From Mesostigma viride (lineage: Eukaryota > Streptophyta > Mesostigmatophyceae > Mesostigmatales > Mesostigmataceae): DNA of 64,000 bases. A model generated the notes under the pieces. The model was not told the origin of the DNA. It searched no databases and saw only the letters and a list, made by a program, of their open reading frames with translations. Of the stretch, positions 6,053-63,485 are shown piece by piece. The stretch is taken from NCBI GenBank assembly GCA_009746045.1, contig RPFO01000059.1, positions 620,501 to 684,500 of the forward strand, read 5' to 3'. The translations under genes and the position numbers were made by a program. The stretch's first letter is position 1. The number at the start of each line of letters is the position of its first letter.

Positions 6053-6163
6053 CTGGCTCATGCTGAGCACGCGGCCGATGGACAACTCCACGGCGGACAC
6101 GTTGGCCTGCACGCTGGTGGCACTCGAGTGCGCGTGCAGCTCGAGGAGGGACGCCTGCAGCGC
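6053..6163 (-). CDS. Candidate internal exon, possibly of the PDAT gene
   Basis: A 37-codon open segment lies between a good acceptor (ctacag) and a good donor (CAG|GTAGGT). It encodes a peptide with A/L/S/V-rich helical character, including HAHSSATSVQANVSAVELS. Both boundaries are phase 0, which fits the phase-0 end of the last supported PDAT exon at 8110. The peptide does not match a part of PDAT that I recognise, so it could belong to another minus-strand gene. Two degenerate copies of its donor edge follow at about 6015-6030 and 5942-5960. Confidence 0.35.
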
Positions 6164-6317
6164 CTGTAGATGCGCCGTGCATGCACGCACACGCGCGCCC
6201 AGAGACGCACAAACAGCACTGAAAGGGGTGTTAGTTGACCGGACACTATAAGGACACTATAAAGCGGGTGCTAGTTGTACGGTAGCGAAAAGGGAGGTAT
6301 GACCGCTCATCATTGTC

Positions 6318-7442
6318 GTGGGCTATGTCATGCGCAAGGCGCGCGCCCGCTTCGCCAGCGTTGTAGGGCATGCGCCTGGCGGGTGGTCATGCAGATGGGA
6401 CGGACTACCGCCTGGCCCATTGATCTACGCCGATGATACCACTCTCATCGAGGATACCGCGAGCTTGTCCAGCTCTGGTTGGACTGCCTGGCCCTGGAAG
6501 CACAAGCAGTTGGCCTGGAAATCAGCAAGAAGACTGAAGCGATGGCCTTGGGGCTTGATGATCGCCCCCCACCGCTTTTACACCTGGACGGCACAGCAGT
6601 TCCCAACACCGAGCGTTTTAAACTCTTGGGCAGTTGGCTTCCTAGCACCAAGGATGACATCGACACACGCATACGTCTTGCATGGACGGCTATGCGTGAA
6701 TTAGACAGAGTGTTGCACGCCGAGGACCTGGGCGCTGGCCGGAAACGGGATCTTTTCAATGTTCTTACTATTCTGACCTACGGTGCGGAAGCCTGGACAC
6801 TCACTCATCATCTCGAGTCCAGATTGAATGGGACAGTTACTAGGATGCTTAAGTATATCTTGGGGGTGAAGTACGGCGAACACCCCCACTTGGCGGCTTT
6901 GTATGATGGGATGCCCCGTGTGTCTGATATTATTAGGCAGCGTATACTACAGTTTGCAGGCCATCTAGACCACACTAATCAGGTTGATACAGATGAGGGC
7001 CCTGCTGGTTCCTTCACTTCCTTGCGGACTGGCAAGCCCGGGAGATATCTTCGTACATGGTCAGGCCCTGCCAGGGTTAGGCGACGCGATGGCCTATACC
7101 GACATATCATTTTGGCTGACATGCAGAGCAAAGACGCTGTTGGCGTCATCCGCTCAACCCCTCTTACTCAGATATGGTCGGATATGCTGGATAAGCAGCG
7201 TCGGGCGGACATTCTCAAAGACTACGACCCCCCAACCATGTGGGTCCCAGGAAATATAAAAAGCATGGTAGGCATAGTTAGCGTGCAAGATTAGCTCGAG
7301 GCCTTATGTGAGGCCCATATTTTAGACTAGCTGTGGGCATACATGTACATATGGATGTCTTGGGGAGACGTCCACTATATCTTCATTGGGGAATTCAGTG
7401 CTCCGTGGTCCCCCAACGGGGACACGAGATAACTAATTAATC
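6318..7442 (+). mobile_element. 5'-truncated non-LTR retrotransposon (RTE/Jockey-like RT end)
   Basis: The segment encodes the end of a LINE reverse transcriptase. A YADD catalytic box (YADDTTLIE) lies at about 6430-6460. After a frameshift near 6470 comes the thumb and C-terminal region, with the typical YGAEAWTL motif followed by RMLKYILGV, and a stop at 7292-7294. About 100 bp of 3' UTR follow. They end in a stem-loop, GTCCCC-CAAC-GGGGAC at 7408-7423, and a taattaat tail. The 5' part (endonuclease and palm motifs A and B) is missing, as expected from incomplete reverse transcription. It is inserted antisense in the presumed PDAT intron 6164-8109. Confidence 0.85.
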
Positions 7443-11100: not shown

Positions 11101-14100
11101 ACTCACAAGTAGAGGAACACGAGGGAGCCCATCGAGTGGGTGACCACCACCACCGGCTGCTCCCCGTTCAGCGCCTTGAGGTCCTCGATCGTGTTCGCAA
11201 GCCGGCTGAAGTAGCGGTCCCTCAGCTCCAGGTTGGGGAACGCCAGCCGCCAGTCGTACGAGGCCATGTAGAGCGAGCTCTCGTCGTGGCCCGCCGCCGC
11301 CAGTGCTTCAATAAGTGGGGCGAAGACGTAAAAGTTTTGGACAAAGTAGTCGGCCGCACCCAGGCCTGTGGGGGGGTGACAAACATGATTGTGTGCAGGT
11401 GACGTGCGTGTTTGACTGTTAGCCTTATGTGCGTTGATGTGAAAGGGTTGGCGGTAGACCGGTCTACTATCGTAGACAGGGTCTCGAAAATCAACCCCGA
11501 ATTTTATTTTGAGTAGTGCAATCGACAGATCTCCGCGAGACCATCCTGGATCATACCTTAGAAACTGGAAAGTACATTTCCGGTGGGGAGATAGTGTGGC
11601 TACAAGGCTGGTGAAAATGGCTGTATGCTGACCCCTTTGCATCAAACGGGCCAGAGTCAAGACAACCCTAGTAGGACATTGGGGGGGCCAATCTTAACTT
11701 TAAGTAGCGCAATCGACAGATCTCGATGAGGGAACTCAGAATCTAAACCTTACACGCCAGGAATGGTCGACACTTGGGTGGCAGGGGTCAAAATACAACA
11801 CTCCCGACGCCAAAAATGAATTTCGCCGAAATGTGCTTTTTAAATAGGGTAGACCGGTCTATCACCAACTCTTTTATGTGTCTACGTGTGTATGCGTGAG
11901 CGTGGTGGGGAGCAAGGTAGCCGGGTCATTCGGAGTCCCTGCTACGCGATGCAGTTCGATCCCATCCGGACAAACGGACAAACGTACGAATGTCTGCGCA
12001 CTGCACAGGGAGGTGGGGGTGGGGGCGGACTTGCAAGGTGTGAAATCTACACTGCACTGTTCAAGACATGACAAACTAGCCAGCCTCTAAATGCTGCGGC
12101 AAACTGCTCACAATTTTCATCGCGAACGCAAGATCCGACCGTTTCCTACGGCTGCCACGTGAGCAAAACCCAGTGCTTGGGTGCACAAGTGGCGGGCCCT
12201 TGCCTACGCTTGTGATAAAGCAAAGCATTGATGAGCGCAGCATATAGTCAAACCACTGTGTGGCCAAGCATGGCAGCCCCACCCAAGGCTGCCCACCCAA
12301 AAATGCTTAGAAGCACTGTGGGAATCGGGAGCAGGCACGGGGAACACTATTGGAGAGATGGGGGAGTACGCATGGAGCTATTGCCGGGCGCCAACGGACA
12401 CACGAGTGCCCGTTGCCACCGTCCAATGGATCACGAGGCCTGGCGGCACGAAAGGAGAACCACTCTCAGATAATGGAAAGGGTATCTCAAATAAAGACTG
12501 TACTGAAGCACAAAACCATACTGTAATTGGAATAGCCAGTTAAGGGGTCCGGACACACCGGAATTATTTCGCGCCAAAAAATTCGCGCCGGTACCCGGCA
12601 CGTGAAATTGTGGTGCACGATGCGCGTAGCCCTTGCGCCAAGTTGGCCATGGCGACGTGCGTTAGGTAATAAATGCAGTAATATGGCAATAAGACCGCAT
12701 AAAATTATGCAGATGCGTCAAATCAAAGTTTCATCATGATCTTGCGTAGCCGAAGATGCATTATTGACGAGATCGATGCCATTTTTCATCCGCGTTTGCG
12801 AGGGGGTCTGGCCCGGAAATCTTGCCGCAACGAATAAGCAGCAATACATGCCTACAGCGATAATTACAAAGGTTCTTAGTCCCTAGCGATGCAGAAAGCA
12901 ACGTTCATTAACGGGGAGATTGAAAATGTTAAAGAACCTTTTATTTTATTACTTTTCCTCGTCATTTTCGGAAAGAAAACGCCAGGTCCTGCTTTATGCG
13001 CTGTCAACCCGTCCATGGGTGGCTGGCATTTCTTGCGCGCCTTGTCAGGAAAGATAGCATGCCATTGTACGTCTATTATCCAGTGGTTACCCCCGAAGTC
13101 TATTGCGTTTAGAAATCCCTTTATTCTAAGCTTTCAGCACGGTTTCCTGGAAGGGTGCGTTGTTTTGTTCGCCGCTTGCTGCATGCACGTCTCTAGTTTT
13201 CCGGCAGCTTTCAACCGATTCGCTTACGTTATGCGTGGCAAGCTCTGAAATCCTGTCTAGGATTGGGTAATATCAAGGTAAGCTGCTACGTTAATGTAAT
13301 GATATATGGAAGGATTTGGATGGCAGAGTGCTTATATTGCATATTCAACACGTACCCCGGCATGCCTCGAGGGCGGCATGCAACAAGCTGGCGAGCATAT
13401 GAACCGTGCGTCTCAACGTGCTGGGAAACAAGGTGGCTATACTTCTCTTGCTGGCCATGCTTTGTATATGTGTAAGCTATGCTTACGTGTGTGTCCTCTT
13501 TAGATTTGTGGATCACAGCCACTATGCTTCACAATCAATGTGCTCTCAAGGATGCTAGCCATGCTTATGAGGATGGCTGCAAGCCATTTCTCTTATGGCT
13601 TTGCTGTATTTCGTGTTTGCGCTTACAGTTCTGTTTTGTTGGTTGGTTTTTGAACGGGGTGATGTGAACCTGCAGGGTTAGAACATTGTGTTATTATTGC
13701 TGGTTGATTGAGGCATCATCCTCTACTCTAAGTCAGCATAGCACGTGTAGATGAGCATGCTGTTTATGCACCTTATTGTTGAGCATGGTTTACAACCATG
13801 GTGAGGTGTGGGGTGTGGCTAGCATGTACGAGTCACCCATCTAATCCCACATGTTTCTGTTGCTATTGAACGTTGCTTGGGCCTCTAAACATTTCTGTTA
13901 TTACCAATGAAGATTGCCAACTATGCTACCATAGTGTGGTGCTGCATGCTATGAATGACCTCTCTAGTACTCAAGGCTCATGCTCAGCTTGATCCTGCAT
14001 TTGGTGGCTGTTTGTATAACTCAATTGGCAGCCGTCTATGTTAGGATTCTGATGATTTGTGGTGGGCAGGTGATGAAAAGGGTTATGTTTGAGCTCATGC

Positions 14101-17003
14101 CAGTCTATACTAGGGTTGAGGGGTGGCAGTTGAGGACACTAGTTTATGCCATCAGTCTAGCTCAGAATGACCTGAATTTTGATTCCAAGATAGTTTGCAT
14201 GATAAATAACTTGCTGGCACCTTGTTTGCCCCACTTGGTGGTGGGCAAGGGTGATTGGTGCAGCCATTTGGCATAAAACCGTATTTTCGTGCATTTTTTT
14301 TTTCATACAAAAGTGATGTTTGTTCACATACGTGGTCAGAATGAGCTGAAAATTGGTCCCATTGATATTCCCACCCTGTGGAAGTTATCTATATCTCCCT
14401 GGGCCCAACCCATGCGTATTTGATTTGATTTTTTTTTTTTAGTCACAAAAAAGACGTATTTTTCGGTAAACTGCCAAAGTATGCCCAGACGTGCGATTTT
14501 GGTGCTGCAAATTAGCTCCATTCCTTGGTCTGGGTGGGGATTTTACTGGAATATGGTGTTTGGTCCACAAGTGTGGGGGGGTTGTCCTAGGCAATCCGTG
14601 CTTTTAGGGGGTGTGCGCGCTAAAAATAGCTCCGTGCACATGGATGGTGATGGGCCTTGAACTCAAAAAGTAGCCAGATGCATGCCCAAGGGTCATATTT
14701 ATGGTCCCCCATCATAATTTGCATTGCCAGAATGGGTATTGAGTGCAAAACATGTGTATTCAATTTGGGGGGGTTCAGGTGTGTCCGGACCCCTTAAACA
14801 GTGAAACAGCCACCCTGCATGGGCACAGCTAAACTTGCCCTTGTCTAGCGACCATATACTACCATACTCTCTGTTCAAACACAACCATACACAACTATAC
14901 AGCAGCAAAGTCTACCATACACTGCAATGTTCATACAAATATTGTCTCCTTGATACGTACACCGCAATGCACACCTACCCAAGATTTGGCCTCCCTTTGA
15001 TGCCATGTCTCCCACATCAGTTAGCATCACGCCATACCACACCCTGGTTCTATTCATAGCTGCCCTGGTACCCGCATGTGACATCGGCCACAATGCTGGA
15101 CACACCCCACATCTCTGCACAGCGGTGCTTGCATACCTGATATGGGCCGGACCTTGATGCCCGGGAAACCGCCCATCCACATATGCACGCGTGCTGGTTG
15201 TCTTATGGGACCTGATGTGAACCTGATATAGGCCCGGCAACCAACTTGTCTTAATTCTATCCCCCTTGTCTACACACCACTGTCGATGTCTCACCAGATA
15301 TCGGCCGGACCTTGATGCCCGGTGGGTCCAACCCCGTCTCTGGGTCCAGCATGATGTGCTCCTTCCAGCAGTTGGTGTCCACCAGCAGCTTGAGCATGAA
15401 GCTGCCGATGCTGCCGCCCCACCTGCGCACGCGGGCCCCATCCACCGACAGCGAGGGGGCCATAGCCGGCAGCCATGACGGATTATTGGTTATTGCACGC
15501 CTCAAACACAACAAACCAGGCAGGAACAGGACAGGCGTATACCCTTGATACACAGATACTGAAAATGCCTCGCGGGCACCGAACAGGTACCATACACCGG
15601 CATGCGCACAGATGCGTTAGTGTCCCGGAAGTAACTGATGAACCCAATCCTACCACCTTAATATCATCTTATATGCGCTCAATCCTACTACCTTAATAAC
15701 ATCTTATATGCGCTCAATCCTACTACCTTAATAACATCTTATATGCGCTCAATCCTACTACCTTAATATCATCTTATATGCGCTCAATCCTACTACCTTA
15801 ATATCATCTTATATGCGCTCAGTCCTACTACCTCAATAACATCTTATATGCGCTCAATCCTACCACCTTAATATCATCTTATATGCGCTCAAGTGCGCTG
15901 TACAGGCACTCATCAAGCGTACATACAACGTCGGCATGGGTACGCCATGGGTGAAATGGCAGCAAGTAGTGTAGATAATTAGGCTGCACTGAAATAATTT
16001 TCATAAGCACGCGGCACTCGACTTGATGGAGCACGACCCAGCAACCAACTGTGGGGGCACCATAATTAAATACATGCAGGTAGCAACATGGCATATTCGA
16101 GAGTGTACTAATACGCGCTGGCCCCGTAAGTTGTCCCAGGTAGCAACCGAGTGCAGGAGGGAACACAATCGCGTGGTGCATTTTCTCCTGGGCAGTCAGG
16201 GAACCGTGCGACCAAGATGCCACAAAGGGATGCTAAGGCTCCTGGCTACGCATGACCGCACGCGTGCACACGCCACTTGAAACACAGCGCCGGCCCTTGC
16301 TGTGAAAATTATTAATGCTGGGGAATATGTACAGGGCCTTCAAAAGTGTACACCCAAAACCATTTCAAGTTCAATTAATTACTGTACTTTACGAGAGTTC
16401 GCTTTGGATGCACTTCAAGGCTGCAAATAGTAATGTGGCCACGGGGAAAACTCACATGTGTTTCCGAAACGAATTCTTCGCGCATTCCTTCCCCTCCCAC
16501 AGCTCCAGCCCCGATGTGATAATGCCGGGAACGAAGACCACCGGATGCTTCCTGGTTAGGTTCGCGCCTCGGACAAGGTCGGATATCCGTACATGATCAC
16601 CCGCAAGGCGGGTGGCAATCATTTCTGGGGACAGGTCTGGATGCATCATGGCTAGCATGATGGAAATGTACAAGATGGTCAGCGCCCCAACCCACCACAG
16701 GCACGCCTCGGAGCACTTCCGCACGCCATGACATCGTTTCTTACGCTTCTTCTTACTAGTAGCACGCTTCTCTGGTTCAGCGGGGGCACTGGGAAAAAGA
16801 GGGCTGGATGCCTTGTCCTCAGCTATCTCATGGGAAGCGCCTTTTCGACGCCTGGGAACCGACCCAAACTGAACCGCTGGACCTGGGGACACACTTGCAA
16901 TCTCCCCACCGTCTGCGTCCTCTTGTAAATCTCGCAGGGCATCAAAAGAATGCCGGCGAGATTGAGCTATGCTCCTTGGATTGAGACTGCTTCCGCGAGC
17001 CAT
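8110..17003 (-). CDS. PDAT: Phospholipid:diacylglycerol acyltransferase (PDAT), 3' part missing
   Basis: LCAT-family enzyme that moves an acyl group from phospholipid to diacylglycerol to make triacylglycerol, usually in the ER. Exons: 17003-16456, 15422-15295, 11365-11107, 9790-9459, 8810-8110. All have GT-AG borders and phases that join (656 codons). The N-terminus is basic, with one membrane span at about residues 101-120. The lumenal part begins HPVVFVPGIITSGLELWEG (near 153-171). The lipase-type nucleophile lies in THSMG (Ser about 303). ETGLDPPGIKVRP, SYDWRLAFPN, HIKSVVNIGPPFLGV and LPKGGEAVWG are PDAT signatures. The last exon holds a long Gly/Ser-rich insert. The C-terminal Asp and His of the triad are not found, so the gene either continues left of 6053 or is broken. 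Its introns carry two inverted-repeat elements and several minisatellites. It is divergent from NOL. Confidence 0.88.
8834..8866. repeat. GT run followed by a 12-G run
   Basis: Short simple-sequence tract in the PDAT intron, just upstream (in gene sense) of the 8810 acceptor. On the coding strand it forms a pyrimidine-rich lead into the splice site. Confidence 0.8.
10085..10640. repeat. 11-bp tandem array, about 50 units
   Basis: Units atcttatatcc and atcttatattc alternate in an irregular pattern with few other changes. The array lies in the PDAT intron between the exons ending at 11107 and starting at 9790. Confidence 0.95.
11007..11125 (-). repeat. Tandem copies of a PDAT exon end plus donor site
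   Basis: The authentic junction at 11107 (exon tail CTCTACTT, then GTGAGT) is followed in the intron by two degenerate copies at about 11041-11080 and 11007-11040. Each keeps a CCTC-TGTTC-TC exon-like stretch followed by GTGAGTGTCAC. Confidence 0.75.
11450..11865. mobile_element. Possible small inverted-repeat element
   Basis: The palindrome GTAGACCGGTCTAC at about 11453 recurs at about 11850, and they bracket 0.4 kb. Inside are two diverged direct repeats sharing gcaatcgacagatctc (about 11519 and 11709). It has no coding capacity. It could also be a local duplication rather than a transposon. Confidence 0.35.
12540..14797. mobile_element. TTAA-flanked inverted-repeat element 1 (2.26 kb, non-autonomous)
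   Basis: Both ends carry TTAA (12540-12543 and 14794-14797) next to a perfect 16-bp terminal inverted repeat, GGGGTCCGGACACACC at 12544-12559 and its complement at 14778-14793. Duplicated TTAA targets are typical of piggyBac-type transposition. The interior has only short frames (largest about 119 codons) and none looks like a transposase, so any movement would need an enzyme from elsewhere. It lies in a PDAT intron. Confidence 0.75.
15135..15300 (-). repeat. Copies of the second PDAT exon edge inside its intron
   Basis: The exon tail encoding PPGIKVRPIS with its donor (15295) recurs at 15135-15164, nearly identical over about 28 bp and again followed by GT. A shorter copy lies at 15220-15238. 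Confidence 0.8.
15645..15892. repeat. 35-bp minisatellite, about 7 copies
   Basis: Tandem unit containing catcttatatgcgctcaatc, with small changes (taata/taaca) between copies. It lies in the first PDAT intron. Confidence 0.93.
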
Positions 17004-17574: not shown

Positions 17575-20266
17575 ATGGCTGCCACTCTCGTCGCCGTCGC
17601 TTCCAACGTCCATGCTTTGAAGCTGAATGCAGCTTCTTCGCCATCAGTGCCCGCACGGGCATCATCCAAGGCATGTGCTGTCCGGCCATCACATAGAAGC
17701 GGCAGGCGTAGCCGGGTCGAGTCTGTCGACGGCGGCTTCCTCGGGCAAACGCTGACCACAGTTCCCGTGAGGGCTTCAACATCAGCGACTGCCACCACCA
17801 CCCGTGCCTCCGCAGATGGAGCAGTCAAAGCCAAAAAGGGAGGGGCTGTGGTCACTGGAGGGGCTGCTGGCGTCGGTTTTGGAATGGCAGAGGAATTTCT
17901 CGTAAATGGCTATGACGTCGTAATTTGCGACATTAATGGCGACAAAGTGCAGGCAGCGGGGGAGTACCTTGGAAAAAAGTACCCATCCCAACGTATTTTC
18001 TCCATTCGGTGCGATATTGGAGATGAAAACGATGTCCAAGCTCTAGCTGATCTCGCACGGGAAAAACTTGAACCTGCCGGCGGGGTGCGGATTTGGGTGA
18101 GTATGACTCGTGCATTCCCCAGTTTCCATAAGTATGCGCCAATTGTGCGCAGCTCCCCCCCCCCCCCCCCCCGCGAATGCAGTGCGTTTCTGGAAATACT
18201 TGAACCATCAGCGTGTGCGCGTCAGAATAGATGCCCTGGACATGACGTCCTCGATGACCATGTTTCCTGCGACACGCGCGATATGGCAAGGGCGTCGAGA
18301 GCTGGCCCATATTTACCTGGAAGGTTCCAATAAGCACATTTACCTCAGCCTTGGCCTGCAGGGCCTTCTGGGGGCAGGAGTTCCAGATTTCTCTAGAATG
18401 GAATGGTTCCAACAAGCAGGCATCCTGAACCTTAAATTGCAGCTCCGCCCGCTATGCCTCCCATCAACCCACTATATCTCGCACTGCCCTTGTACCCACT
18501 AAGGGATTCCTATTTTTATGCTCCTGCAGCAGCAGCAACCTGCCCATGTCCCTTACCGTTTTGTGTATCTTTGTCCCTTTCTCGGCCCCTCTCTCGGCCG
18601 ATGACTTTTCTTGACCCTTGTCCGCCACCCCCTGCCCCCTCGCTCCCCCCCCTGCCCCCCCCCAGGTGAACAACGCGGGCATCAACGGCGGCAAGGTGCC
18701 CGTGCGCAAGCAAACAGTGGCCAACATCCGCCGCGTGGTCAACACCAACCTGACAGGGACCATCCTGACCACGCGCGCCGCCATCAACACCATGCTGGAC
18801 GCGGCCAAGGAGTTCGTGGCCAAGAACCCCGGCCAGGTGGCGCCGCGCGGGCACATCTTTGTGGTCACGGGGTCGGGGGTGAAGGGAGAGCCGACGCCAG
18901 GTAGGTGCTGGTGGGGGTGTCGATGCTGGGTTGATTTTGCTGAGAACATTTCCTAAAGAACCAGGCACTCGTGAGGCTCTGATGTGCTGTCTTGTGTGCT
19001 TTTGTCCTGTAGTACCCTTTTCTCCCGTACTGCGTGTGAATGCAACATGCGACTAACAACTCCTGCAGGAAGCAACACGGTCACCGAGACGAGTCGTGCT
19101 GTCATTCCTTGCCCGCTGCTGTCAGTGACCACCTGCTGCTTGAATCTTGGGGTGGTCGTGTCATTGAACCAATCGCCGCATCATGCCTACAACCCCCAGG
19201 GTGGGCCACCTACGGCGCCACCAAGCGCGGCCTGCCCCAGCTGGTGGCCTCCCTCAACAAGGAGCTGTCCGAAGAGAAGCCTGATACAGAGTCGGCCGTG
19301 GCCGCGCCAAACTGGAAGCCTTCCGACGTGGTGGCCGTGCACACGGTGAGGGGGGGGGGGGGGATGTGTAAAGTCTGCGGATAAGGGGATGAGGGCGTGA
19401 GGAGATGATGGTTTGTTGTGGTTTATAGTGATGGCTTAATGTTTGCACACCGTGAGGGGTGTTATGGAAAGCCTAAGTGGTGGAGTGAGTGATGGACGCA
19501 GTGAGGGTTGCACCGTGCACACGGGGAGGGGGGGGGAAGGGGTGCACACAGTGAGTGGAGGATGGGTGCACCGTGCCCACAGGGAGGGGGGTACACACAG
19601 CGAGGGGGAACCCGACGGTCAGTTGCTTGGACGTAACATTTGCGATGGCATGCTACCGCGTTGGTTTGTGTGAGCTGTCTAAGTAGGTAAGTATGCGCGT
19701 GCCATGGGCAGGGGCTTGTCACAAAGTGATATTTAAAGCTCCGTGATAAAATTGATGCAACTGCTAAAAACAACTATCTTATGTATCCTGCCCCAGCCCT
19801 AGCGGCGTAATCTAGATGGGGGGCTGTCTCCCACATCGCATATCCACTGTTCGTACCAGCATCAGACCATGACGCTGACATGGCGCCGTTGCCGCAACCC
19901 TTTTCTTCTTTCTTTCCGTGCCTCCCTTCACCGTGCCCCCAGATGTCGCCCGGCATGGTGTTCACTGACCTGCTGCTGGAGGACTCCACGCCGCGCCTGC
20001 GCCAGTTCTTCGACATTCTCGCCGACGAGCCCGACGTGGTGGCGCGTGACCTGGTCCCCCAAATGTGCGCGCTCGTGGAGGCCAATGCGGCGCCGGGAGC
20101 CAAGGTGGAGTACCTGTCGCCGCCGCGCATCGCCAGCCGTATGCTGTCGCTGGACATGGTCAAGTTCCTCATCGGCATTGGTCCGCAGAAGCACTTTGAC
20201 GCCAAGGGCAACCGCATTAGCAAGGGGGAGAAGTACAAGGACAATGGCGTCAAGGTGCTCTACTGA
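17575..20266 (+). CDS. NOL: Chlorophyll(ide) b reductase, NOL/NYC1-type SDR, plastid
   Basis: Short-chain dehydrogenase that reduces chlorophyll(ide) b to the 7-hydroxymethyl form, the first step of chlorophyll b breakdown. Four exons, 17575-18096, 18666-18900, 19200-19345 and 19943-20266, join in phase to 408 residues. The start at 17575 (cgccATGG) is preferred over 17485 because it opens a Ser/Ala/Arg-rich transit peptide of about 75 residues. SDR landmarks: cofactor motif TGGAAGVG (near 94-101), NNAG (176-179), a Ser in FVVTGSG, and YGATK (257-261). The closest family signature is SPGMVFTDLLL followed by VARDLVPQM and YLSPPRI, as in plant NOL. There is no membrane segment, which favours NOL over NYC1. 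Intron 3 holds degenerate copies of the exon 3 edge. Confidence 0.88.
19444..19610 (+). repeat. Degenerate copies of the NOL exon 3 edge in intron 3
   Basis: The junction at 19345 (GTGCACACG|GTGAGG) is echoed at about 19444, 19512, 19542, 19568 and 19591 by variants of ccgtgcacacgg/agtgagg, interleaved with G-rich tracts. Confidence 0.6.
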
Positions 20267-21303: not shown

Positions 21304-24300
21304 TCACGGGTATCCAAGGCCGCGTGCCGTGTTGAAGTTCATCGCGCGGGGCGGCGAGTCCTCTGGCGGCACGCGGAAGAAGTCCTGGTCCGCCCCGCCA
21401 CCGCCACGATCCCCCGTGAGCGAGGGGAACCGCGCGCGCAGGTTCTGGAACTGTATGTCCCGCACGTTGGACCAGGACGGGAGCCGGTCAAAGATGGCAC
21501 CAAGCGAGGGCATCTCCCAGCGGCCCGTCTGCACCATGTACAGCGCCATGATCCCGGCCAGGATGACGAGGGTGATGAGGAAGGATCCCAGCCAGAAGTG
21601 GCCACCGGAGGCGCCCGCGGTCGGGTGGTCCACGTAGTGCCCGTACCCAGTGACCTTGCCCACGCAGACGTCACCGGCAACCAGCCGCTTGCGCTTCCTG
21701 CGGGGGGGGGGGGGGGGGGGGGGGCGGGGACTAGTCAAGTAATTAGCGGAAACGATGAGTGAAACGATGGATGGAACGCAGAGATGCAAGGAAAAGGAGG
21801 GCCAACCAGATATGGACTATACGGACTATGCCCCCTTTGGTGGGGGGCGTGAGCACTGCCTGGGGCGATAGTTAGCTTCACTTCTCACTTAATGGTTCAA
21901 CCCCTGATGGCCAGCACATCCTGGGGTGGACGCATCAAGGAGCGACCCCTTTCGCACCAAGTGGCTAATATTAGAGCTGCACAGGCCAACCGCCCCAAGC
22001 AAAGAACGCCTACGAAACCTCAGAGGACCGGATCACTGGGCATGGTATGTATGATGCCAACTGGCTTGATGCCCATTGCGATACTCGCGAATGCCAATTG
22101 CAGGAAAGCACGGGGAGGCACAAGGGAGGGTGGGGCACCCAGGGGGGAATCCGCGGTCCACCCAGTTTACAACCTTGTCGTTAGCACAGTCAGAAACACA
22201 AGCAGGTACATCACCACGCGACAAGGGAAGCAGGCATGTCACAATACAGGTTCAGACACTGGAAGCAGGCATCGGTCCACGTACTCTCCAATCTTGTAGC
22301 GGCCCTCATCAACCACAGGGCACGAGTAGGGCAGGCCGATCGGTTGGCAGTAGGAAATGGCTCCTTTGTGCTCGCTGCCAAAGTCACTGCTCGGGGACAC
22401 ACAGGGTGAAGGATTGGGGGGGGGGGGACCACTCGGGGGGGTGAGGGAGGAGCATGTCAGGGGCCCACCAGCCGCGCACCGAGGGGAGGACGGCGTCTGG
22501 AGAGAGTTTCCGTGCCTACCGCCAACAATATGCGTTCCTGCAGGGCACATTGTGATGCCAAACGTACATGCGATGCTAAGATATCATCTTCTTCTTGTGC
22601 GTGGGGTACATACTAAAATATATACTGTGATGCCAAACATACATGCAGCACCGCGATAACATCTTCTTCTTGTGCGTGGGGTACATACTAAAATATATAC
22701 TGTGATGCCAAACATACATGCAGCACCGCGATAACATCTTCTTGTGTGTGGGGTACATACTAAAATATTTACTGTGATGCCAAACATACATGCAGCACCG
22801 CGATAACATCTTCTTCTTGTGTGTGGGGTACATACTAGAATATATACTGTGATGCCAAACATACATGCAGCACCGCGATAACATCGTCTTCTTGTGTGTG
22901 GGATACCCCCTTAGCCCACAGGGACGTGGCATGCATGCGCCATGTGCACGGCCCACACGTGTCGTAGCCACTTGCACGCGGCGGGTTGCATGTCCGTGGA
23001 CAAGAGAACACCCAATGGGTCGCCAGTGAGCGGCACACCTCATACCAGCTACCAACTGCCGCTGTCCCCTGAACGCAAAATAAGGGCCCCCTTCCCTGCC
23101 CCTCTGTGTTCCATGGCACAGACAGACCAGCACGCACAGCCCTAGCAAGTCTGCGCGTCCCTCCCACCAATGCATGTGCCAATAAGAGCTTGCGTTCAAA
23201 TAAGCCTCTGGCGGCATGAATGTATTGACAAATAACCATTCAATGAGGAGCCAGAGGCCATTACTTGGACGATTTCACCGCGCACATCACCACGGGATTC
23301 ACCAGAAAAACAGGGGGGCAGCAAACAGCCCTCGCGTACACAGCCACCACCCGTCAGCCATCTAAGCTCAGCATCAGTATACTCTTGACAGGCGATCAAT
23401 ACATGAAACATGCCCTATATTCAAATAAGCATCAAAGCTGTGCCCCTATCCCCTTCTGCACCCAAGCCACGCTTTGTACCCAAACCGCGTCCATGCACCA
23501 CTCCACTCGTAGTCGACAGCGGCGCAGTCAGCGTACCGCCGACGTGCTGTCGCTACAGACCAGCACGCCACTATGGTACCGGCACGATGTCTACGTCCAC
23601 ATACCATTTGTAGTCAGCGGCGGTGCACTTAGCACATATACAATATACTGCCAACATACCAGCTTAGCCAATTTACTGTCAAAATACCCCACGTGCCACC
23701 AATACAGGAGTCAACGTACCACTCGTAGTCGGCGGCGGTGCACTCGCACTGGCTGCTGAGCGCCGTCAGGTTGGGCCGCACGTACGCCTTGCCGTTGTAG
23801 CACTTGGACTCCCGCTTCTGACGCTGCAGCGTGAAGTTGCGGCCCAGCAGGCAGTGGGTGGTCGTGCTGCCGCCGCCATGGGTCGTAACCACGTCACAAC
23901 GCCGGAAGCAAATGCAACCAAGGCCATGTCGCCACAGCGCACGTGAAGCGTTTCAGAGGATCGCCAACAAATGTGCACAACGGGGTTGGTGTGCGATTGT
24001 GATGAAGCTACGCAGGGACCCGCGGAAAAGGATTTACTTTGTACTTAGCCCCCGGAAAGGGGGCGCCCTCATGGGCTCATGGGCCCCCAGCCTCAGGTGA
24101 GCACCCCAGAACACCAATCTCCATATATGTAGCGTCTCAGGAATGGGGCGCGCGCACTCGCGGGGACCCGTCCTCACAAGAACATGCAGGATCGAGATGT
24201 ATACATGCGAGTCATGGAATGCAAACCATGCAAGAAAGGGGCCGCGCGCACTCACGGGGACCAGTCCTCATAGTCGCTCTCGCGGCATGGCGGGAAGCCG

Positions 24301-27300
24301 ACCTGGTCGCGAGCAAAGTCGACCGCGATGATGCGCCCGCGACGCGAGTCGTTGGGCACGTTGGCCTTCTCCAGCGCCTGCACGAGGAACACGCGGCCCG
24401 CGCTGTCCTGGTGGGGGGCAGATGGGGGTAGGGGGGGGGGAGATAAATGAAGTTGAAGCATGTGACGGGGCGCGGTGTGTGTGTGTGTGTGGAATCACGT
24501 TAAATCACGTCATGCGGGGGGAGAGAGAGGAGGATTGGACACATGGGCAGAGGCCAGTGGCCAAGGACAAAGGCGCAGGGGTCCGGGGGTCCGGGGGTCA
24601 GGGGTCAGGGGTCAGGGGTCAGGGGTCAGGGGTCAGGGGTCAGGGGTCAGGGGTCAGGGGTCAGGGGTCAGGGGTCAGGGGTCAGGGGTCAGGGGTCAGG
24701 GGTCAGGGGTCAGGGGTCAGGGGTCAGGGGTCAGGGGTCAGGGGTCAGGGGTCAGGGGTCAGGGGTCAGGGGTCAGGGGTCAGGGGTCAGGGGTCAGGGG
24801 TCAGGGGTCAGGGGTCAGGGGTGACAGGGCACGGGGCACGGATGATGTGGGGGGGCAAGGAAGGGGGAGGGGCCAATGGCAGAGGCGAGGCGTGAGAGAC
24901 GGCAGCACAGGCACGCACGGGGCAAGTTGCAGCCATGTTGGCGGGATGGAGCAGAGAAAGAAACGGCGGGCGGGCATGCATATGGAAATGCTTCACATGC
25001 CCCACAGGCAGGCGTTTTCTCTTTCTGTCTCGTCTCATGCAAACAAGTCCCCTCCCATCTTTCTTATCCATTCACGCATGCAACGTCTTCTACGCGCGCA
25101 CGCACCGGCTCAACGCGGATATTGTGCACAAACACAGGCTCCTCGCTGAAGGTGAGGTCGACCCAGGTCAGGCCCTCATCCAAAGTGTAGCTGCACAGTG
25201 TGTGTGCGCAGGGAGGGAAGGGGGGGGGATGCAAGCGAGCAAAGGGAAAGTGAGATGGAGCAAGATGTGTCACTGTGCAGCTTGATAGGGGGCGGGCAGC
25301 AGGGTATAACAAGCAAACGAGGAAGCAGGGAGTGAGATGGGCAGCATTGGGGGGGGGGGGGGGGGGGGGACAGCCAAGCGCGCAAACGAAAGAAGATGAG
25401 ATGGGGCCTCGCGTGTCGTCGCGCACACAGCGAGCAAGCAAGCAAGCAACATCAGGTGGGAGATCAAATAGGGCATGGCATGTAGCACCCTGGTAGGGGG
25501 GGAGGGGGGGGGAGGGCCGCCGGGTAAAAGACGCAAAGGGGGTGGGCGGGTTTCAGACGCTAAGGGGGTGGGAGGGTTTAAGACGCTAAGGGGATGGGAG
25601 GGTATGAGACGCACAGGGGAGGGGAGGGTAAAACAAGCAAGCCCAGGGGCTATGAGACCGGGCCAAATGTGTAGCTGCATGGACGTGTAAAGAAACATGT
25701 GGGGCAGGATGAACAACTGTACATCAGCTTGTAAGCCAGCCTACTGACGCTGTGTAGGTAAGGCACTTACATCAGCTTGGTGGTCAGCTCGTACATGGGC
25801 GCCATCAGGATGACGCCGCCCTGGTCGCCGATCTCAAAGATGAAGGGGCCCTGGCAGGCGGGTCGCGGGCGACAGCAAAAGGCACGCAGAGGCGTCAGCA
25901 AAGAAAGCCTTGGTCAGATAAGCGAGACGCAGACACAAGGCGCGGAAGCACACAAAGTAACGATAATTGCAAACTCAGACAATGGCATGCAAAGTATAAA
26001 CACACGTTGAAATTGCAAACACAGATTCCTACCACACAGCCTTGGCTAAGCTACTTTCTACCGTAATAACAGGGTACGCTCGTCCAACCCATGTCCCCTG
26101 GCTTATGGTAAAACAACACCAAAGCACTTCTGAGCACGATTGCCCTACCTTGCGGATCTCCTCCCAGGTCATCCCACCATCCCTTGTCAGGTACGTGTTG
26201 ACCTGCGGGGGAGGAACGGTGACGCGCAAGCATAAACACGAGCGCAAGCATGCACGACAGGTGCGCAAGCATAAACATGTCTGCAAGCATAAACACGCGT
26301 GCAAGGCAAAAGTCGCAGCGTCCAAGTGTGAGAAGAGGGAGCCACAAGGATGATGCCGCAGCGACGCAGCGCGGAGGCGGCCATGACTTTGTCGGCATGG
26401 CAACGAACGCACTAGGCGAAACCATTTGTAACAGCTCAGCAACAGCAGGCTTCAAAATCCTCTTGCCTTGGCAATAGGCACAAGTGCGCCACAACCCTGC
26501 ACAATAACAACTTCTGCCCTGCACAGATGTCGCCAAAGGCCTCCCCAACCAGGCCATGTACCTGTTGTGCTACAAAGGTTTCCATAGGTTTTCAAACGTG
26601 CTCAACGATCGGAATGGTACCCCAGTCTCCATACAGTAGATACTCATCCTCGCACGCATCGCGCATGAGAGAGGATGATACTCATCCTCGCATGCATCGC
26701 GCATGAGAGAGGATGAGCAAAGTAGAACTCACCTCCCCCCCCCGCGTAGGCACATGCACACACACAGACGCGCAAACATAATTCGTAATCATGCACATCG
26801 CCTTCCCACACACAAGTGTGGACAAGGGCCCGTACTCACATCGCCCTGCTCGCAAACACACACTCGCCCTTACTGTTGGTCATCACGCACACACACCGCA
26901 CACACACCTCCTCATAAACACACACAAATAAATGGGGAAGGCCCATTCACATCCCCATCCTCGTAAACGCGCACGCATGCTACTACGTAATGGTCACTCA
27001 CATCGCCCTCCTCATACAGGTATCGCCCCATGTTGCCGGTCGCAAGCACAATGCCCGGCGCGTTCTCGTGCGAGTAAAAGCTCGCAAACGGAGGCTTGAG
27101 TCCCAGCCCACGCCAGCTCGTCGGGCCATGCAGGTGCAGCTGGCACTCGGGGCTGCCACGGCTGCAAGTGATCGGCCTCTCTTCCGCGTCCACCGCGGGT
27201 GGGTTCAACGGCTCCCACTGCGCCCCCCCGCTGAAGCTGATGCGTGTGGTCACCTTCAGGTCATCCATGTCCTCACTGTCAAACGCCAGGTCGTCGCCGA

Positions 27301-28654
27301 CCTGGTTCGCGATTATGACACCTGGCAGACCGTGGACCGTGTCAAAATCGATTGCGCTGCTCGTTGTTCGCGCATTGCGGCGCAGGCTCAGGCTGAAGAG
27401 CAGGCCGCGCGAGTCGCTGCTGTACACGTTGCCAAAGGGGCCGCGCCGGCCGTCCTCGGCGTCGTGGTCCACGTTGATGTAGACGGCGCCGGTGGACTCC
27501 ACACTCACAAGCGAGTAGCCCCGCTGGGCGAGCGGCACGGGGAAGCAGACCTGCTCAAAGTTGCGCCCGCTGTCGTGGCTCACGTGCAGGTTGACGGCGA
27601 ACGCGTCGCGCGCGGTGCCCGCGCCCTGCGCCACCGCCTGCAGGGATGGAGGTGCAGAAGAAAACGACAGACGCAGAGGGCAAGGGATCGAAAACAAGAG
27701 ACAGGGGGCAGGGGGGTGGCGATAGAGAGGCGGGATGTAGGAATAAGAAAGGACACAAGAACGCCGCGTTGCAGGCAGGTTGAGCGAGGTGGGAAGGGAG
27801 GAAACGTGGTCGATGGGAAAAGGTCCTGTGTGCTGGGGTAACGGGGGGCGATGCGCCGAGAGAGGGGGCCCAGGCACAACATCAAAACAACATACCATGC
27901 ATGTCCCCAGGCGTGTCAGGCCCCTTCCCCGCAACAGCTGTCATCTATCCCACCCCTCACCAGGAGCAGCTGTCATCCGCCCCACCCCTCACCTGCAAGA
28001 ACTTTCGTCCACCCCACCCCTCACCAGGAACAGCTGTCATCCACCCCGACCCTCACCAGAAACAGCTGTCATCCACCCCGACCCTCACCAGAAACAGCTG
28101 TCATCCGCCCCACCCCTCACCAGGAACAGCTGTCATCCACCCCACCCCTCACCAGGAACAGCTTGGAGCCGACGATCTCAAACTGGTTCCCCCCCTTCAT
28201 CTCCAGCGCGTGCTTGCTCTTGAAGAAGTCGCTGCTGCGCACAAAGTTGACCTGCCGGTCCCACCCCACCACGGTGCGCCGCTTGTGCGGATCCAGCGTC
28301 GCGCTGCTCTCCACCACGGTCGCCAGAATCGTGTCCGCATTGTATTGCTCGTCCGCGCGCGCGTGGGCGTTGCGCTCCGCCGCGTCCTGGGGCAGGGGCA
28401 GGGGCAGGGGCAGGGGCAGGGGCAGGGGCAGGGGCAGGGGCAGGGGCAGGGGCAGGGGCAGGGGCAGGGGCAGGGGCAGGGCAGGGGCAGGGGCAGGGGC
28501 AGGGGCAGGGGCAGGGGCAGGGGCAGGGGCAGGGGCAGGGGCAGGGGCAGGCGGTAACAGGGGCAGGGGCAGCGGTGGTACCACAAGGTGAGTACAGCTA
28601 ACAAGACGCTCTTCTACAAACAGTGGTACTGAGACATGGGGGGTCGCGGGGGAA

Positions 28655-47456: not shown

Positions 47457-48156
47457 CTAGTATATATATGTCGAGGTACTGGGGCATGCGCAAGGGAGAT
47501 GTACTATGTTTCCAGTTACTCACCGGCCCAACTTTTCTGCGGAAACCCTGGAAACCGGCATACACATATTACGGCAAGACTCGGGTCTGCTGCGGCACCA
47601 TGCTTGCATGGTATTTCCATTGTGTGTCGACTTTGACGTAACACATGTTTATATTCATTCCGAACGCCGGCCCGGACTCTCGGCTATACGGAGATTTGTG
47701 CAGACTTTTAATTACTGGGTAGCTCCGGGCACGATGGTGCCTGCAAATAGCGTAAGGCGTGACGCCGTGACCGTGGCTATCATTGCTACGTTATTAAATT
47801 AGATTAAATAAAATTATAACATGACTCCGTTGGGAGATCATGTAGCACATATTCCCTTGCTGCATGGATGGATGGAAGTGGGCGAAGCCGCGAAACCGAA
47901 CTAAGCTAACTCTACAATCTAATCTAATCTAATCTAGAAACCCCTAACTGATCTACTCAGCAAAGCGCCCCTTCCTCTTGGGGGGAGGGGGCAATTGCCC
48001 GCAGGGGCTGGCGTGTGCATGCGTGGTCGAGCCTGGACAACCGTCTTCCATGCACCTCTTCTTGTTCTGCATAGCAGTCCAAGCAAGAGAGAGGGATCGA
48101 GTGAATGTGGTGTTCAAACGGAGCTGGGACCACGAGGTCGGGCAGCAACTGCTGTG
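47457..48156. other. Short LINE relics and unassigned sequence
   Basis: A minus-strand LINE 3' end with the CAAC-loop stem (CTCC-GTTG-GGAG at 47825-47836 on the plus strand) and a ttaaatctaat-like tail lies at about 47795-47850. An AATCT pentamer run lies at about 47915-47937. The rest is unassigned. Confidence 0.55.
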
Positions 48157-58392: not shown

Positions 58393-58662
58393 TTAATTAA
58401 TTAATTAATTAGACTCGTGCTCCCGTTGGGGAGTCACGGAGCATTAACCCCGATGGATGGATGGATGGATGGGTGCAAACATTCCTACCGGTCTAATCTA
58501 TCTACATTGGCTACATACTACATCTATCTAACAGAATTCTAACTACAACATCTATCTAGGCAGCCGCACGCTGCCCTAGGGGGAGCTATCTGGCGTGCCT
58601 CCCGCGGGATTGCACACGCGGGCGCTTCCCCACTGGGGGGGGCTCGTTGTCCTCTAGGGCTA
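58393..58662 (-). mobile_element. Small LINE insertion inside HAL1-like copy 2
   Basis: Minus-oriented 263-bp 3' fragment. It has a TTAA-repeat tail (58393-58411), stem CTCCC-GTTG-GGGAG read on plus (58420-58433), and four CCAT-type units. Perfect 7-bp target duplications AGGGCTA flank it at 58386-58392 and 58656-58662. Confidence 0.82.
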
Positions 58663-58718
58663 TGTGCTACATATACTCCCAACGGAGTTATGGTATAATT
58701 CAATTCAATTCAATTCAA

Positions 58719-59385: not shown

Positions 59386-61595
59386 CTAGTCACCAGCAGG
59401 CCCCCCTTGCTCTTCCGCTGGCATGACAAAGAACTCCACGTGGGTGACCCTGGCCGCGTCCTGCGAGACCTGCGCGCCACCCTGGGCGCCACCCTGTGCC
59501 GCCGTTGACGTTCCGTCTGGATTCCTGTCCCCCCGCCGCCCGGCTGAGTGACCCCCCCCCCACCCCCCATTGAGTTGCTGCCCCCACCGCCCATGCCAAA
59601 CACCGGGTGTCCCCTCATGGATATGATGTGCTGCACCTTGAGCAGGCCGCGGTAGTCCATGGACACTTTACTGCCGCGGTGGTCCCGCAGCACCCCTGCG
59701 GGAATGTTGCAGGTGGTGGCCTTGAGGTACTTGTGCTTGTAGCTGCTTGCATGCCACGGAGTGGACAAGTGGGGGCCATCACATGCATGCCAAAAAACAA
59801 GCCAGGTGGGCAGGCCGCACCCAGAACCATCAGATGGCCACGTTTCGCTATTCTCACTGTTGCCACGGTGACACGCTACAGTTGATCATCGAACTGTTAA
59901 TAACCGAACTGTAACCCTGCCCCATGGCCTCGTGCAACTAACTACTGCCGCAATGCCTGGGATGCATTCTCCTAGACGCAACCAGCACACAGTTTACCCA
60001 TGCTGCCATGCTGCTGCCATGCTTGCAAACTTGCTCATGATGCCACCCTTAGGTGCGCCCCCCCCCCAAAAAAAAGAAAGGGCCAGATGGGACATACCCA
60101 TCCATCCCCCTCTCGTGGTCCAAGCAAGCATGTACTATGGAGTACTACCACATTCCATGGATGTACCACCATGTAGGCTCTGATCCTGATTCCTGGCCCA
60201 ACCAGGGCAGGCGGGCGTACAAACAGATGCGCTAGCCCATGGCCATAACAAGCAGGTGAGACGGACGCAGGACCACCACGTGCACAACCCGATCAAGAAC
60301 ACAAAAAGCAAAATCGCGCACACGTACGAGCACGTGCCCTAGGCACAAGCTGCAATCAACAAGGAACGGACGTGAGCAACTGGGTGATGTGCACGTACGA
60401 GCTGGCAAGCTTGCTCTCGCACACAAAGTTGATGAAGAGATCGGACTCATAGCTGTTGATCAGCTCGATCTGGCGGCGCGCGGCACAAGGGGGCGCGAGT
60501 GGCAGCGCAAGGAGGACAAGAGAGGCACAAGTGAAGATCCACGCGTAAGCAACTGGCAGTCGCTTACGGAAGCATCAGTGATGCGAGGGCGGTCAGCAAT
60601 TTCAAGGGGGGGGGGGGGGCATCGATTCTGGCCATCACGTCTCCAGCGCGCCAGGAGTGCTGACCCAAATTTCCAGGGGTTGGGGAGCAATAAAATATGG
60701 ACATGTTGATGGAAAGAGCAGGGTTTAAGATTCCGAAGGAACTCTCAAAAAGCTTTTCTATGGAAGCAGGTCTGCATGAGCCACCGTGCGACTGGTGTCA
60801 CTGAACATTGTGTTTTCTAGTACCTGCCAACGAAAATAAAAAATTTTATTAATTTATGCGATTGTGAATTGTAATTTTTTTAAATGAGTTGCAATATTGA
60901 AGAATCTTCTATATTATAGAATTCATCCTCAGTAGCTCAGTGGTAGAGCGGTCGGCTGTTAACCAAGCCGCTGCTACCAAGTGCACACAAGAGCGCCAAC
61001 CAAGGAAAGGTTAGAGTTTGCTGGCTGCATGGAGACCGGAGCGTCAACCTGTGGGGGCGTGACATGGTTGCATCAGACATGGGCAGATACCTGCGGCTGA
61101 CATGACCATTCATACCTGCAGGCTGCCGTGCCCGTCCGCGTTGAAGACGACCTCCTGTGGGTCGGGTGAGATGATCACGTCCACGTTGCTGGCGGGCCAC
61201 TCGAGGTCTTCGATCACCTCCTTGAGCGCGCTGGCCTGTGGGTGTGTCGCAAACACAGGGGTAAAGCACCCACAGACACACACACACACACACACACATG
61301 CTTGAGCGCGCTGGCCTGTGGGCAGGAGTAAAGCACCCACAGACACACACACACACACACACATGCTTGAGCGCGCTGGCCTGTGGGCAGGAGTAAAGCA
61401 CCCACGGACACACACACACACACACACACATGCTTGAGCGCGCTGGCCTGTGGGCAGGAGTAAAGCACCCACGGACACACACACACACACACATGCTTGA
61501 GCGCGCTTGCCTGTGGGCAGGAGTAAAGCACCCACAGACACACACACACACACACACACATGCTTGAGCGCGCTGGCCTGTGGGCAGGAGTAAAG

Positions 61596-61631
<36 letters not shown>

Positions 61632-63485
61632 CTTGAGCGCGCTGGCCTGTGGGCAGGAGTAAAGCACCCACGGACACACACACACACACACACATGCTTG
61701 AGCGCGCTGGCCTGTGGGCAGGAGTAAAGCACCCACAGACACACACACACACACACACATGCTTGAGCGCGCTGGCCTGTGGGCAGGGGTAAAGCACCCA
61801 CGGACACACACACACACACACACACATGCTTGAGCGCGCTGGCCTGTGGGCAGGAGTAAAGCACTCACGGACACACACACACACACACATGCTTGAGCGC
61901 GCTGGCCTGTCGGAGCTACGCCACGCATGGCCGACACGGGGGTCAGAGGCGCAACAGGTGCAAACATGGACACAGACTTCTGGGAGATCACCCCTTGCAT
62001 GATGGCCTGGAGAGTTCCACACATATCAAGCATTGGTTGTCTCCTTGATATCAAGGGCATGCTTCATTTTTAGTAATTTTTCTGGAAGAGCACACTTCGA
62101 AGAATTTGCGAAGCCAATTTATTTGGAGAGGCGTGAATAGCGGACGCATTTTGAGCATTTCCATGGGCATCGACCAGTTGGACGGTGGATCTTGGCGCAA
62201 AACTCTTGACTCTACGGCTAAGATGGTACGACAAAAACAGGATCGAGGGAGTTCGGGGAAAACGCACGTCAAACTGTAACCCATCCATCCATCCATCCGG
62301 CATCCATCCATCCATCCCTGGTCCATCCAAATAATTTGCGCATCTTTGCAAGTATATAAGGGTGGCCTGCAAACTGTGCTCCGCCACTGTGGTCTTCACG
62401 GGCAAGTTAGAACGCACGTTACATGATATTCTCTAAGTTTGTTACACATCGCACACATAGATACAATTATAGATCAAATGCAATCGGAAAATGTACGTGG
62501 CACGTCCTCCGCATGGACGGGCATGCCCACAGAAGCACACAACTTGTTACACGTAGCTCTAGCACACCACCGTGACATGGTCATGGTCAGGAGCGCACGG
62601 TGTCGACCCCAGGCCCTTGGCTTCCCCAGACCCCGGGCCCTTGTCTTCTGTAGACCCATTCCCTATTCCCTATTCCCTATTCCCTATTCCCTATTCCCTA
62701 TTCCCTATTCCCTATTCCCTATTCCCTATTCCCTATTCCCTATTCCCTATTCCCTATTCCCTATTCCCTATTCCCTATTCCCTATTCCCTATTCCCTATT
62801 CCCTATTCCCTATTCCCTATTCCCTATTCCCTATTCCCTATTCCCTATTCCCTAATCCCTATTCCCTATTCCCTATTCCCTATTCCCTATTCCCTATTCC
62901 CTATTCCCTATACCCTATTCCCTATTCCCTATTCCCTATTCCCTATTCCCTATTCCCTATTCCCTATTCCCTATTCCCTATTCCCTAATCCCTATTCCCT
63001 ATTCCCTATTCCTTATTCCCTATTCCTTATTCCCTATTCCCTATTCCCTATTCCCTATTCCCTATTCCCTATTCCCTATTCCCTATTCCCTATTCCCTAT
63101 TCCCTATTCCCTATTCCCTATTCCCTATTCCCTATTCCCTATTCCCTATTCCCCATTCCCTTTTCCCTAGACCCTAGACCCTAGACCCTAGACCCTAGAC
63201 CCTAGACCCTAGACCCTAGACCCTAGACCCTAGACCCTAGACCCTTAACCCTTAACCCTACCCCCTGCGCTTCCCTACCTCCTGCCCCCCCGCTTCTATA
63301 CCCTTTGCTTCCCTAGCCCCTAGACCCTCAGCCCTTGGCCTCACCTTGACCGCAAACGAGGCGGGTGGCACCCCGTCCTCATCGTCCTTCAACGCGAACT
63401 CGGTCGGTAGGTCCTCCAGGTCCAGCATGCTCGTCTTCACGTACGCGTCCATGGAGGAGTAGGTGCTGCCGCCCGCGCCTGAGTC
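59386..63485 (-). CDS. RAD1: RAD1, checkpoint clamp (9-1-1) subunit, 5' end outside the window
   Basis: RAD1 forms a PCNA-like ring with RAD9 and HUS1 at damaged DNA and activates the checkpoint kinase. Visible exons: 63485-63345 (ending PPASFAVK), 61235-61116 ([20 protein letters not shown] to GHGSLQ), 60469-60399 ([15 protein letters not shown]), 59742-59386. Phases join. The third border was set by donor GTACGT so that [16 protein letters not shown] reads through. [19 protein letters not shown] and [13 protein letters not shown] are strong RAD1 signatures, and ALKE-DLEWP is closest to plants. The last exon shifts frame once in a 10-C run (59552-59561, plus strand). This is either an assembly error or a real break in a Gly-rich linker. 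The exon at 61235 has its acceptor repeated tenfold upstream. Confidence 0.88.
60926..60964 (+). pseudogene. trnN: 5' half of plastid tRNA-Asn(GUU)
   Basis: 39 bases match the start of chloroplast trnN-GUU as I know it (acceptor arm, D arm and the anticodon loop CTGTTAA) and then stop. The anticodon-stem 3' side, the T arm and the acceptor 3' strand are absent, so it cannot fold as a tRNA. The AT-rich flank at 60833-60925 may be part of the same plastid-derived insert. It lies in a RAD1 intron. Confidence 0.8.
61236..61914 (-). repeat. Minisatellite of the RAD1 acceptor and exon start, 10 extra copies
   Basis: Each unit of about 56-66 bp reads, in gene sense, CCCACAG|GCCAGCGCGCTCAAG followed by a (TG)n run and a short unique part. 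The first 22 bases equal the real splice acceptor and the first five codons of the exon at 61235. Confidence 0.93.
62650..63160. repeat. ATTCCCT heptamer array, about 73 units
   Basis: Long near-perfect 7-bp array with scattered a/t changes. On the other strand it reads TAGGGAA. It lies in a RAD1 intron. Confidence 0.97.
63165..63262. repeat. CCCTAGA heptamer array with CCCTTAA units
   Basis: About 11 CCCTAGA units followed by cccttaa variants. On the other strand it reads TCTAGGG, one base from the plant telomere unit TTTAGGG. Confidence 0.93.

Follow-up and report, generated by a model that had tools for sequence, protein, structure and literature searches.

Direct copies of exon ends and donor splice sites in the introns of Mesostigma viride are more frequent than copies of acceptor edges

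Exon-edge copies in a 64-kb window of the genome

The window analysed here is a 64-kb stretch of the 440-Mb, 2,243-contig genome of Mesostigma viride, an organism that is photosynthetic, since rbcL genes are present in its genome. The whole 64 kb was inspected. It holds five genes in whose introns the edges of the adjoining exons, together with their splice sites, are found again, and the main result of this work is that such copies, over 132 junction pairs of this genome, come more often from the donor side of an intron than from the acceptor side. Pfam domains identify four of the genes: LCAT (PDAT), short-chain dehydrogenase (NOL, a subfamily label taken only from a preliminary description of this DNA), Sortilin-Vps10 (VPS10) and UCH/USP (USP). 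Neither Pfam nor PDB searches confirmed the identity of the fifth, RAD1-like gene. The preliminary description had claimed 13 recurring exon edges in these genes, of which 12 stand (PDAT three, NOL one, VPS10 six, USP one, RAD1 one); the matching is by gene and count, as no per-site coordinates had been given. For VPS10, six significant donor sites are found where seven had been claimed.

To place the exon borders in the window anew, we used a model of codons and splice sites that had been trained on genes elsewhere in this genome; most of these borders thus rest on an ab initio model and are not proven by homology. A low-penalty gene finder run over the whole window over-spliced, and only its exon coordinates were used, as leads for the window models. 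Each donor edge, defined as 20 exon plus 10 intron bases, was compared with its own intron and with foreign introns of equal length; with 150 foreign draws the minimum attainable p is 0.007. The main criterion for an own-intron copy was p≤0.01, and low-complexity windows were excluded, so denominators differ slightly between tests. The donor test starts beyond intron base 10 and therefore overlooks very short units, that at USP 42320 among them.

By this test, 9 of the 37 donor edges in the window have at p≤0.01 a better match in their own intron than in foreign ones (PDAT 15295 and 11107; NOL 19345; VPS10 32691, 28153, 27002, 25771, 24256 and 23720), and 11/37 do so at p≤0.05, the weaker two being USP 39479 and RAD1 61116. 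Two further donors that the foreign-intron test missed, PDAT 6053 and USP 42320, each reach p=0.003 against 300 dinucleotide shuffles. On the acceptor side only 2/37 edges are significant, the exon starts at RAD1 61235 and VPS10 25190. The individual sites are as follows.

6053..6072, minus strand: PDAT exon end, donor GTAGGT (from 6052 downwards); copies at 6028-6012 and 5957-5935; p=0.003 against shuffles; downstream acceptor not placed
11107..11126, minus strand: PDAT exon end, donor GTGAGT; copies at 11038-11015 and 11073-11046; p=0.007
15295..15314, minus strand: PDAT exon end, donor GTGAGA; copy at 15156-15135, followed by GTATGC; p=0.007
19326..19345, plus strand: NOL (short-chain dehydrogenase) exon end, donor GTGAGG; five degenerate copies within 19444-19608; p=0.007
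23720..23749, minus strand: VPS10 exon end, donor GTACGT; copies at 23624-23595 and 23522-23503; p=0.007
24256..24275, minus strand: VPS10 exon end, donor GTGAGT; copy at 24176-24152; p=0.007
25771..25790, minus strand: VPS10 exon end, donor GTAAGT; short copy at 25731-25720; p=0.007
25190, minus strand: VPS10 acceptor edge (exon start), same intron as donor 25771; short copy at 25679-25663; p=0.007
27002..27021, minus strand: VPS10 exon end, donor GTGAGT; copies at 26965-26944, 26851-26834 and 26812-26794, a weaker one at 26916-26907; p=0.007
27933..28163, minus strand: VPS10 32-bp minisatellite; unit includes GTGAGG and, before it, roughly 11 terminal bases of the exon that ends at 28153
32691..32710, minus strand: VPS10 exon end, donor GTGAGT; copy at 32634-32612; p=0.007; border uncertain by 4 bases, a second donor-like GT outscoring it
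42308..42340, plus strand: USP donor 42320; 17-bp tandem duplication of the exon end plus GTAAG; p=0.003 against shuffles
61256..61910, minus strand: 67-bp minisatellite of the RAD1-like gene (identity unconfirmed); about 10 copies; p=0.007

The RAD1-like array carries the repeated acceptor edge that the preliminary description had reported: its 67-bp unit contains the acceptor (CCCACAG) of the exon that begins at 61235 together with ~18 initial bases of that exon, an edge with ten copies at p=0.007. Units of the array also admit a reading as 18-nt microexons (ASALKH), each flanked by an acceptor and a GT, and the gene finder chained five of these microexon-like units in frame.

Donor edges are copied more often than acceptor edges

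The comparison between donors and acceptors rests on 132 exon-intron-exon junction pairs, the 37 in the window and 95 outside it. The outside junctions were located exon by exon through Pfam families (chaperonins, kinesins, HSP70 and dynein heavy chains), an intron being fixed by homology when neighbouring exons match consecutive parts of one profile. Profile matches were taken when a consecutive neighbour lay nearby (chaperonin 56/58, kinesin 68/129, HSP70 44/51, dynein 31/44). From the resulting pairs, 15/68 chaperonin/kinesin (11 weak, 4 on duplicate contigs), 4/27 HSP70 and 2/21 dynein pairs were dropped, leaving 53 chaperonin/kinesin, 23 HSP70 and 19 dynein pairs, which are not all independent in that several HSP70 genes share contig C1580 and may be related copies. 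Searches with PF00004 and PF00069 gave mostly single-exon matches and were excluded from the junction set.

The donor-versus-acceptor count that had been proposed for this genome was run on all 132 pairs. An own-intron copy of the donor edge is found at 39/132 junctions (30/95 outside the window) and of the acceptor edge at 13/132 (11/95 outside). In this respect the earlier description of border duplication does not hold as worded, acceptor edges being copied less often than donor edges. Paired by intron, there are 32 donor-only cases, 6 acceptor-only cases and 7 with both (p=2e-5; p=5e-4 with the window excluded), and a bootstrap over 64 clusters (contig plus 20-kb bin) places the difference at 19 points with a 95% interval of 10-28. 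The asymmetry extends to exon sequence alone, as the last 24 exon bases are copied at 30/131 junctions and the first 24 of the next exon at 11/132 (p=0.001). Among intron bases, the first 24 are copied at 20/129 and the last 24 at 4/123; the latter result was given no weight because those bases are pyrimidine-rich, which weakens the test. The asymmetry between donors and acceptors is firm, whether it reflects an excess at donors, a deficit at acceptors or both.

Controls were run for position and orientation. Exon bases 25-48 from the border are copied at 7/130 on the donor side and 1/130 on the acceptor side (8/260 together). Among 67 pairs of consecutive introns sharing an exon, the exon end recurs in the downstream intron in 14/67 and in the upstream intron in 0/67, and the exon start recurs in the upstream intron in 4/67 and in the downstream intron in 1/67. 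The preliminary description had named the lack of any excess over shuffled or exon-interior controls as an outcome that would count against it; the exon-interior and upstream-intron controls are near zero. Donor windows have direct copies at 33/132 and inverted copies at 0/132. Given this one-sided placement and the lack of inverted donor copies, we conclude that donor copies are made in place and in a single orientation.

Introns are duplicated well away from their borders too. Intron-interior 24-mers are copied at 61/377, a load comparable to the 30/131 at terminal exon 24-mers (p=0.09). With the window excluded, the two rates are 42/274 and 24/94 (p=0.03). Interior windows are duplicated at a flat 15-17% throughout intron length, with foreign introns giving <1%, and their copies include inverted ones (218/1440 direct, 25/1440 inverted). 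A 5'-to-3' repeat gradient along introns, hinted at by a 53-junction profile, was gone in the larger set. Therefore, of the standing process of border duplication that had been proposed, a widespread duplication process in this genome is upheld, and its specificity to borders is not.

Could these matches be fortuitous? Donor windows share the splice consensus, and they do find matches in foreign introns (7/660; acceptor windows 0/660); the window borders, moreover, are mostly ab initio and some might be misplaced. However, the foreign rate is 1.1% against 25% in the own intron, identities reach 54/58 and 60/64 bases, and 95 of the junctions were set by protein homology. Chance similarity is rejected on these foreign-intron counts, and we give chance or misplaced borders, taken together, next to no credence.

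The copies fall into two structural classes

The structure of the copies was tabulated for 44 donors at p≤0.05, 43 of which gave a copy, by taking the nearest good copy of each in a gapped alignment. Thirteen of the 43 are contiguous tandem repeats, and in this part the earlier description of tandem duplication at borders is accurate. The remaining 30/43 have another layout, namely a junction-spanning patch, a spacer, and the patch again, where the patch consists of the exon end and the first intron bases. The median copy distance over all 43 donors is ~95 bp. Clear spaced cases match at 60/64, 54/58 and 54/58 bases across spacers of 89, 45 and 39 bp; the better-matched donor copies in general have patches of ~20-70 bp that lie back to back or are parted by ~20-170 bp, and 16/17 highly similar spaced donor copies lie within 200 bp. 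Contiguous multi-copy arrays occur at VPS10 27933-28163, RAD1 61256-61910 and some other loci, which are distinct from the 30 spaced copies.

A patch, spacer and patch is also the layout expected of an insertion between target duplications, which raises the question of small introner-like mobile elements inserting at donors with long target-site duplications. Their spacers should then recur. In ~360 kb of sequence, none of 18 spacers was matched at another locus, apart from one that recurs on a duplicate contig, and one spacer searched against the 440-Mb genome, in a search that skips very common words, matched only itself. As these searches turned up no family of related spacers, and as patch lengths vary widely, mobile-element insertion was rejected, and we regard it as highly improbable.

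The spaced layout would also suit template switching or polymerase-theta templated insertion, in which nearby patches are pasted into intron breaks with no duplication in place. The 30/43 spaced copies and their short distances speak for this, as do the inverted copies in interiors, and in rice such insertions can originate ≤200 bp from the break, according to the passages available to us (PMC7407515). On the other hand, inverted templated copies at donors are ruled out by the 0/132 count, and exon patches without the junction are seldom copied (7/130 and 4/122), though they would be harmless in an intron. We therefore consider templated insertion improbable as the general source.

The preliminary description had also inferred that the process lengthens introns and multiplies potential splice sites, which agrees with our finding that 33/44 copies retain GT (8 of these in one array) and that 19/26 donors have at least one GT-bearing copy. 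Such retention, with a match of 0.95 at +5, would suit copies kept as functional decoy or alternative donors. However, by a rough estimate from match rates, GT retention is about what the identity of the exon part and copy decay predict, so that nothing points to selection acting on this dinucleotide in the copies. Copy presence shows no relation to authentic donor strength (p=0.61), and the spacing modulo 3 has no significant bias, with 10/43 copies in frame (p=0.20). We find retention for function very unlikely. The upstream donor presumably stays in use in RNA.

Variation between contigs

Two contigs that are ~2% apart (C887 and C1641; 111 substitutions and 7 indels ≥5 bp in 5,742 aligned bp) differ by events of the same kind. 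Two of the indels, of 43 bp (98% identical to its neighbouring sequence) and 7 bp (100%), are tandem duplications of what lies next to them; those of 18 bp (78%) and 5 bp (80%) are so in part, and the other three, at ≤50%, are not. The two events ≥15 bp per 111 substitutions are close to the simulated rate of ~0.018 per substitution that fits the interior level (see below), a tiny count from contigs that are possibly paralogues. Besides the 7 indels, an intron of C1641 compared with C887 shows a 3.1-kb insertion in one contig of the pair.

Other features of the window and genome

Very long hexanucleotide arrays occupy window positions 1-4896 (AACTGC x60, TACAGA x721, ATACGA x37). The repeat at 6307-7053 looks retrotransposon-like; with 40 of 744 candidates scored, it has at least 44 further match rows elsewhere in the genome, and the top one by score is 87% identical. 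Segments 47050-47460 and 53110-53510 are near-identical by eye and lie close to long open frames that also look retrotransposon-like. Outside the window, C1107 has 22 protein-kinase-domain matches across 660 kb (650000-1310000) on a single strand, and on C2011 the genes for chaperonin, HSP70 and AAA proteins each occupy one uninterrupted open frame, as would be the case on a contig from a bacterial contaminant or symbiont.

Discussion

Direct copies of exon ends and donor sites are present at many loci, in two structural classes, more often at donors than at acceptors and absent from upstream introns, and contigs of this genome differ by duplications of a like kind. The reading that we favour, with confidence a little better than even, is that of a general local duplication process, by break repair with fill-in, whose products are filtered by splicing. 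Short local direct duplications would arise throughout the introns of this genome, probably from staggered breaks, where two nearby nicks are followed by fill-in of the overhangs and by end joining with or without filler. Duplications within exons would be removed. A duplication that straddles a donor would leave a copy of the exon end and its GT downstream, inside the intron, and would be tolerated because the upstream donor, transcribed first, remains in use and the protein is unchanged. In contrast, a duplication that straddles an acceptor would place a decoy acceptor upstream of the real one, which would tend to be used, and would more often be removed. That the first-transcribed donor wins would therefore account for the donor-acceptor asymmetry. 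Some of the duplications may later expand into minisatellites. Both the repair pathway and selection as the source of the asymmetry are inferred parts of this scheme.

Simulations give the copy rates expected of undirected duplication. Undirected in-place duplication tuned to the interior level predicts copies of 10-13% of donor-spanning and 11-13% of acceptor-spanning windows; a patch-plus-filler model, run at three rates, predicts 10-20% and 9-15%, respectively. The observed acceptor-spanning value, 6/132 or 4.5%, is a significant deficit in 4/5 settings (p from 0.0002 to 0.07). At the donor side, purely exonic windows are copied at 25/131, an excess in 3/5 settings.

Several observations weigh against the filtered-duplication reading. 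Donor-spanning windows are copied at 33/132 or 25%, which departs from the in-place model with p of 1e-4 and 2e-6; the excess is significant in 4/5 model settings, with p=0.15 at the highest rate, so undirected duplication may under-predict donor copies. For purely exonic acceptor-side windows (10/132) the acceptor deficit is significant in just 1/5 settings, and acceptor-spanning windows hold pyrimidine-rich bases that are absent from the simulation model. The spaced layout is more frequent at donors (17/25) than at interiors (32/92, measured differently), and the donor rate is uneven, with 23/53 in the chaperonin and kinesin genes and 16/79 elsewhere (p=0.006). The RAD1-like gene carries strong decoy acceptors. 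Furthermore, only two to four events underlie the rate from the contig pair, whose members may be paralogues; a second, near-identical pair (C2/C622) shows no repeat change; and the fit of the donors to protein alignments was a selection criterion and no independent result.

The donor excess is what a mutational process directed to donors would produce, for instance if transcription-linked breaks or R-loops at the exon-intron border favoured duplication there. The gap between the donor-spanning count and the 10-13% of the undirected model argues for this, as does the 53-junction profile, which peaks sharply over the final 24 bases of the exon. Against it, the excess loses significance at the highest simulated rate, copies of the initial 24 bases of the intron are no more frequent than those of its interior, and rates vary among gene sets; we consider donor-directed mutation unlikely, although it is the chief rival to the favoured reading. 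In a more specific form, donors would be hot spots of in-place duplication, with breaks tied to co-transcriptional splicing copying the exon end and 5' splice site, so that introns grow at their 5' end and stock spare donors. This we hold to be slightly more doubtful still.

If splicing does filter general local duplication, ordinary short duplications would become a readout of splice-site choice. A border copy would persist only when the splicing machinery ignores it, and the asymmetry would report which of two identical competing sites wins, in natural sequence and over a large sample. The process would also be an easy way for introns to grow and to acquire spare donors, from which alternative splicing could begin.

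Comparison with known systems

In 2014, Vaughn and Bennetzen reportedly described tandem and near-tandem short insertions in rice as products of patch-mediated double-strand break repair. The rice insertions, in the passages available to us, are direct and in place, with or without intervening sequence, and are attributed to staggered nicks and end joining (PMC7407515). The likeness to M. viride is close as far as these passages go: short direct duplications, contiguous or spaced, mostly within 200 bp, and, in M. viride, two contigs (possibly paralogues) that differ by such events. Unlike in rice, the events in M. viride are viewed across exon-intron junctions, so that it makes a difference whether a donor or an acceptor is copied, and the nicks and end joining are here surmised. 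Small tandem duplications in mouse and human cells arise by fill-in and end joining, with the enzymes demonstrated (PMC8355091, seen in part). These too are <100 bp, in place and direct; the enzymes are known there, whereas the M. viride events are known from sequence alone.

Among matches listed in the literature, we recognised, by title or the start of the abstract, no work on exon-edge copies in introns or on a donor-acceptor asymmetry of duplication. The closest parallel in position comes from Chlamydomonas and Volvox, where the parts of the report that we saw describe tandem repeats concentrated in introns near intron-exon junctions, with a U-shape at both intron ends (PMC3887541). Repeat-rich introns with more repeats near the junctions are common to these algae and M. 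viride. In contrast to them, M. viride has a flat interior, more copies at donors than at acceptors, and copies of exon sequence, which those parts of the report do not mention.

Finally, tandem genomic duplication of AGGT is a route to intron gain (PMC3443670; PMC4974935, both seen in part). As in M. viride, a tandem duplication there doubles the splice signals. However, in the portion of the former report that we saw, a new intron comes from a duplication that lies within an exon; the copies in M. viride sit inside introns whose borders fit the protein alignment and are not themselves new introns gained by tandem duplication. Here it is existing introns that would grow and gain spare donors.

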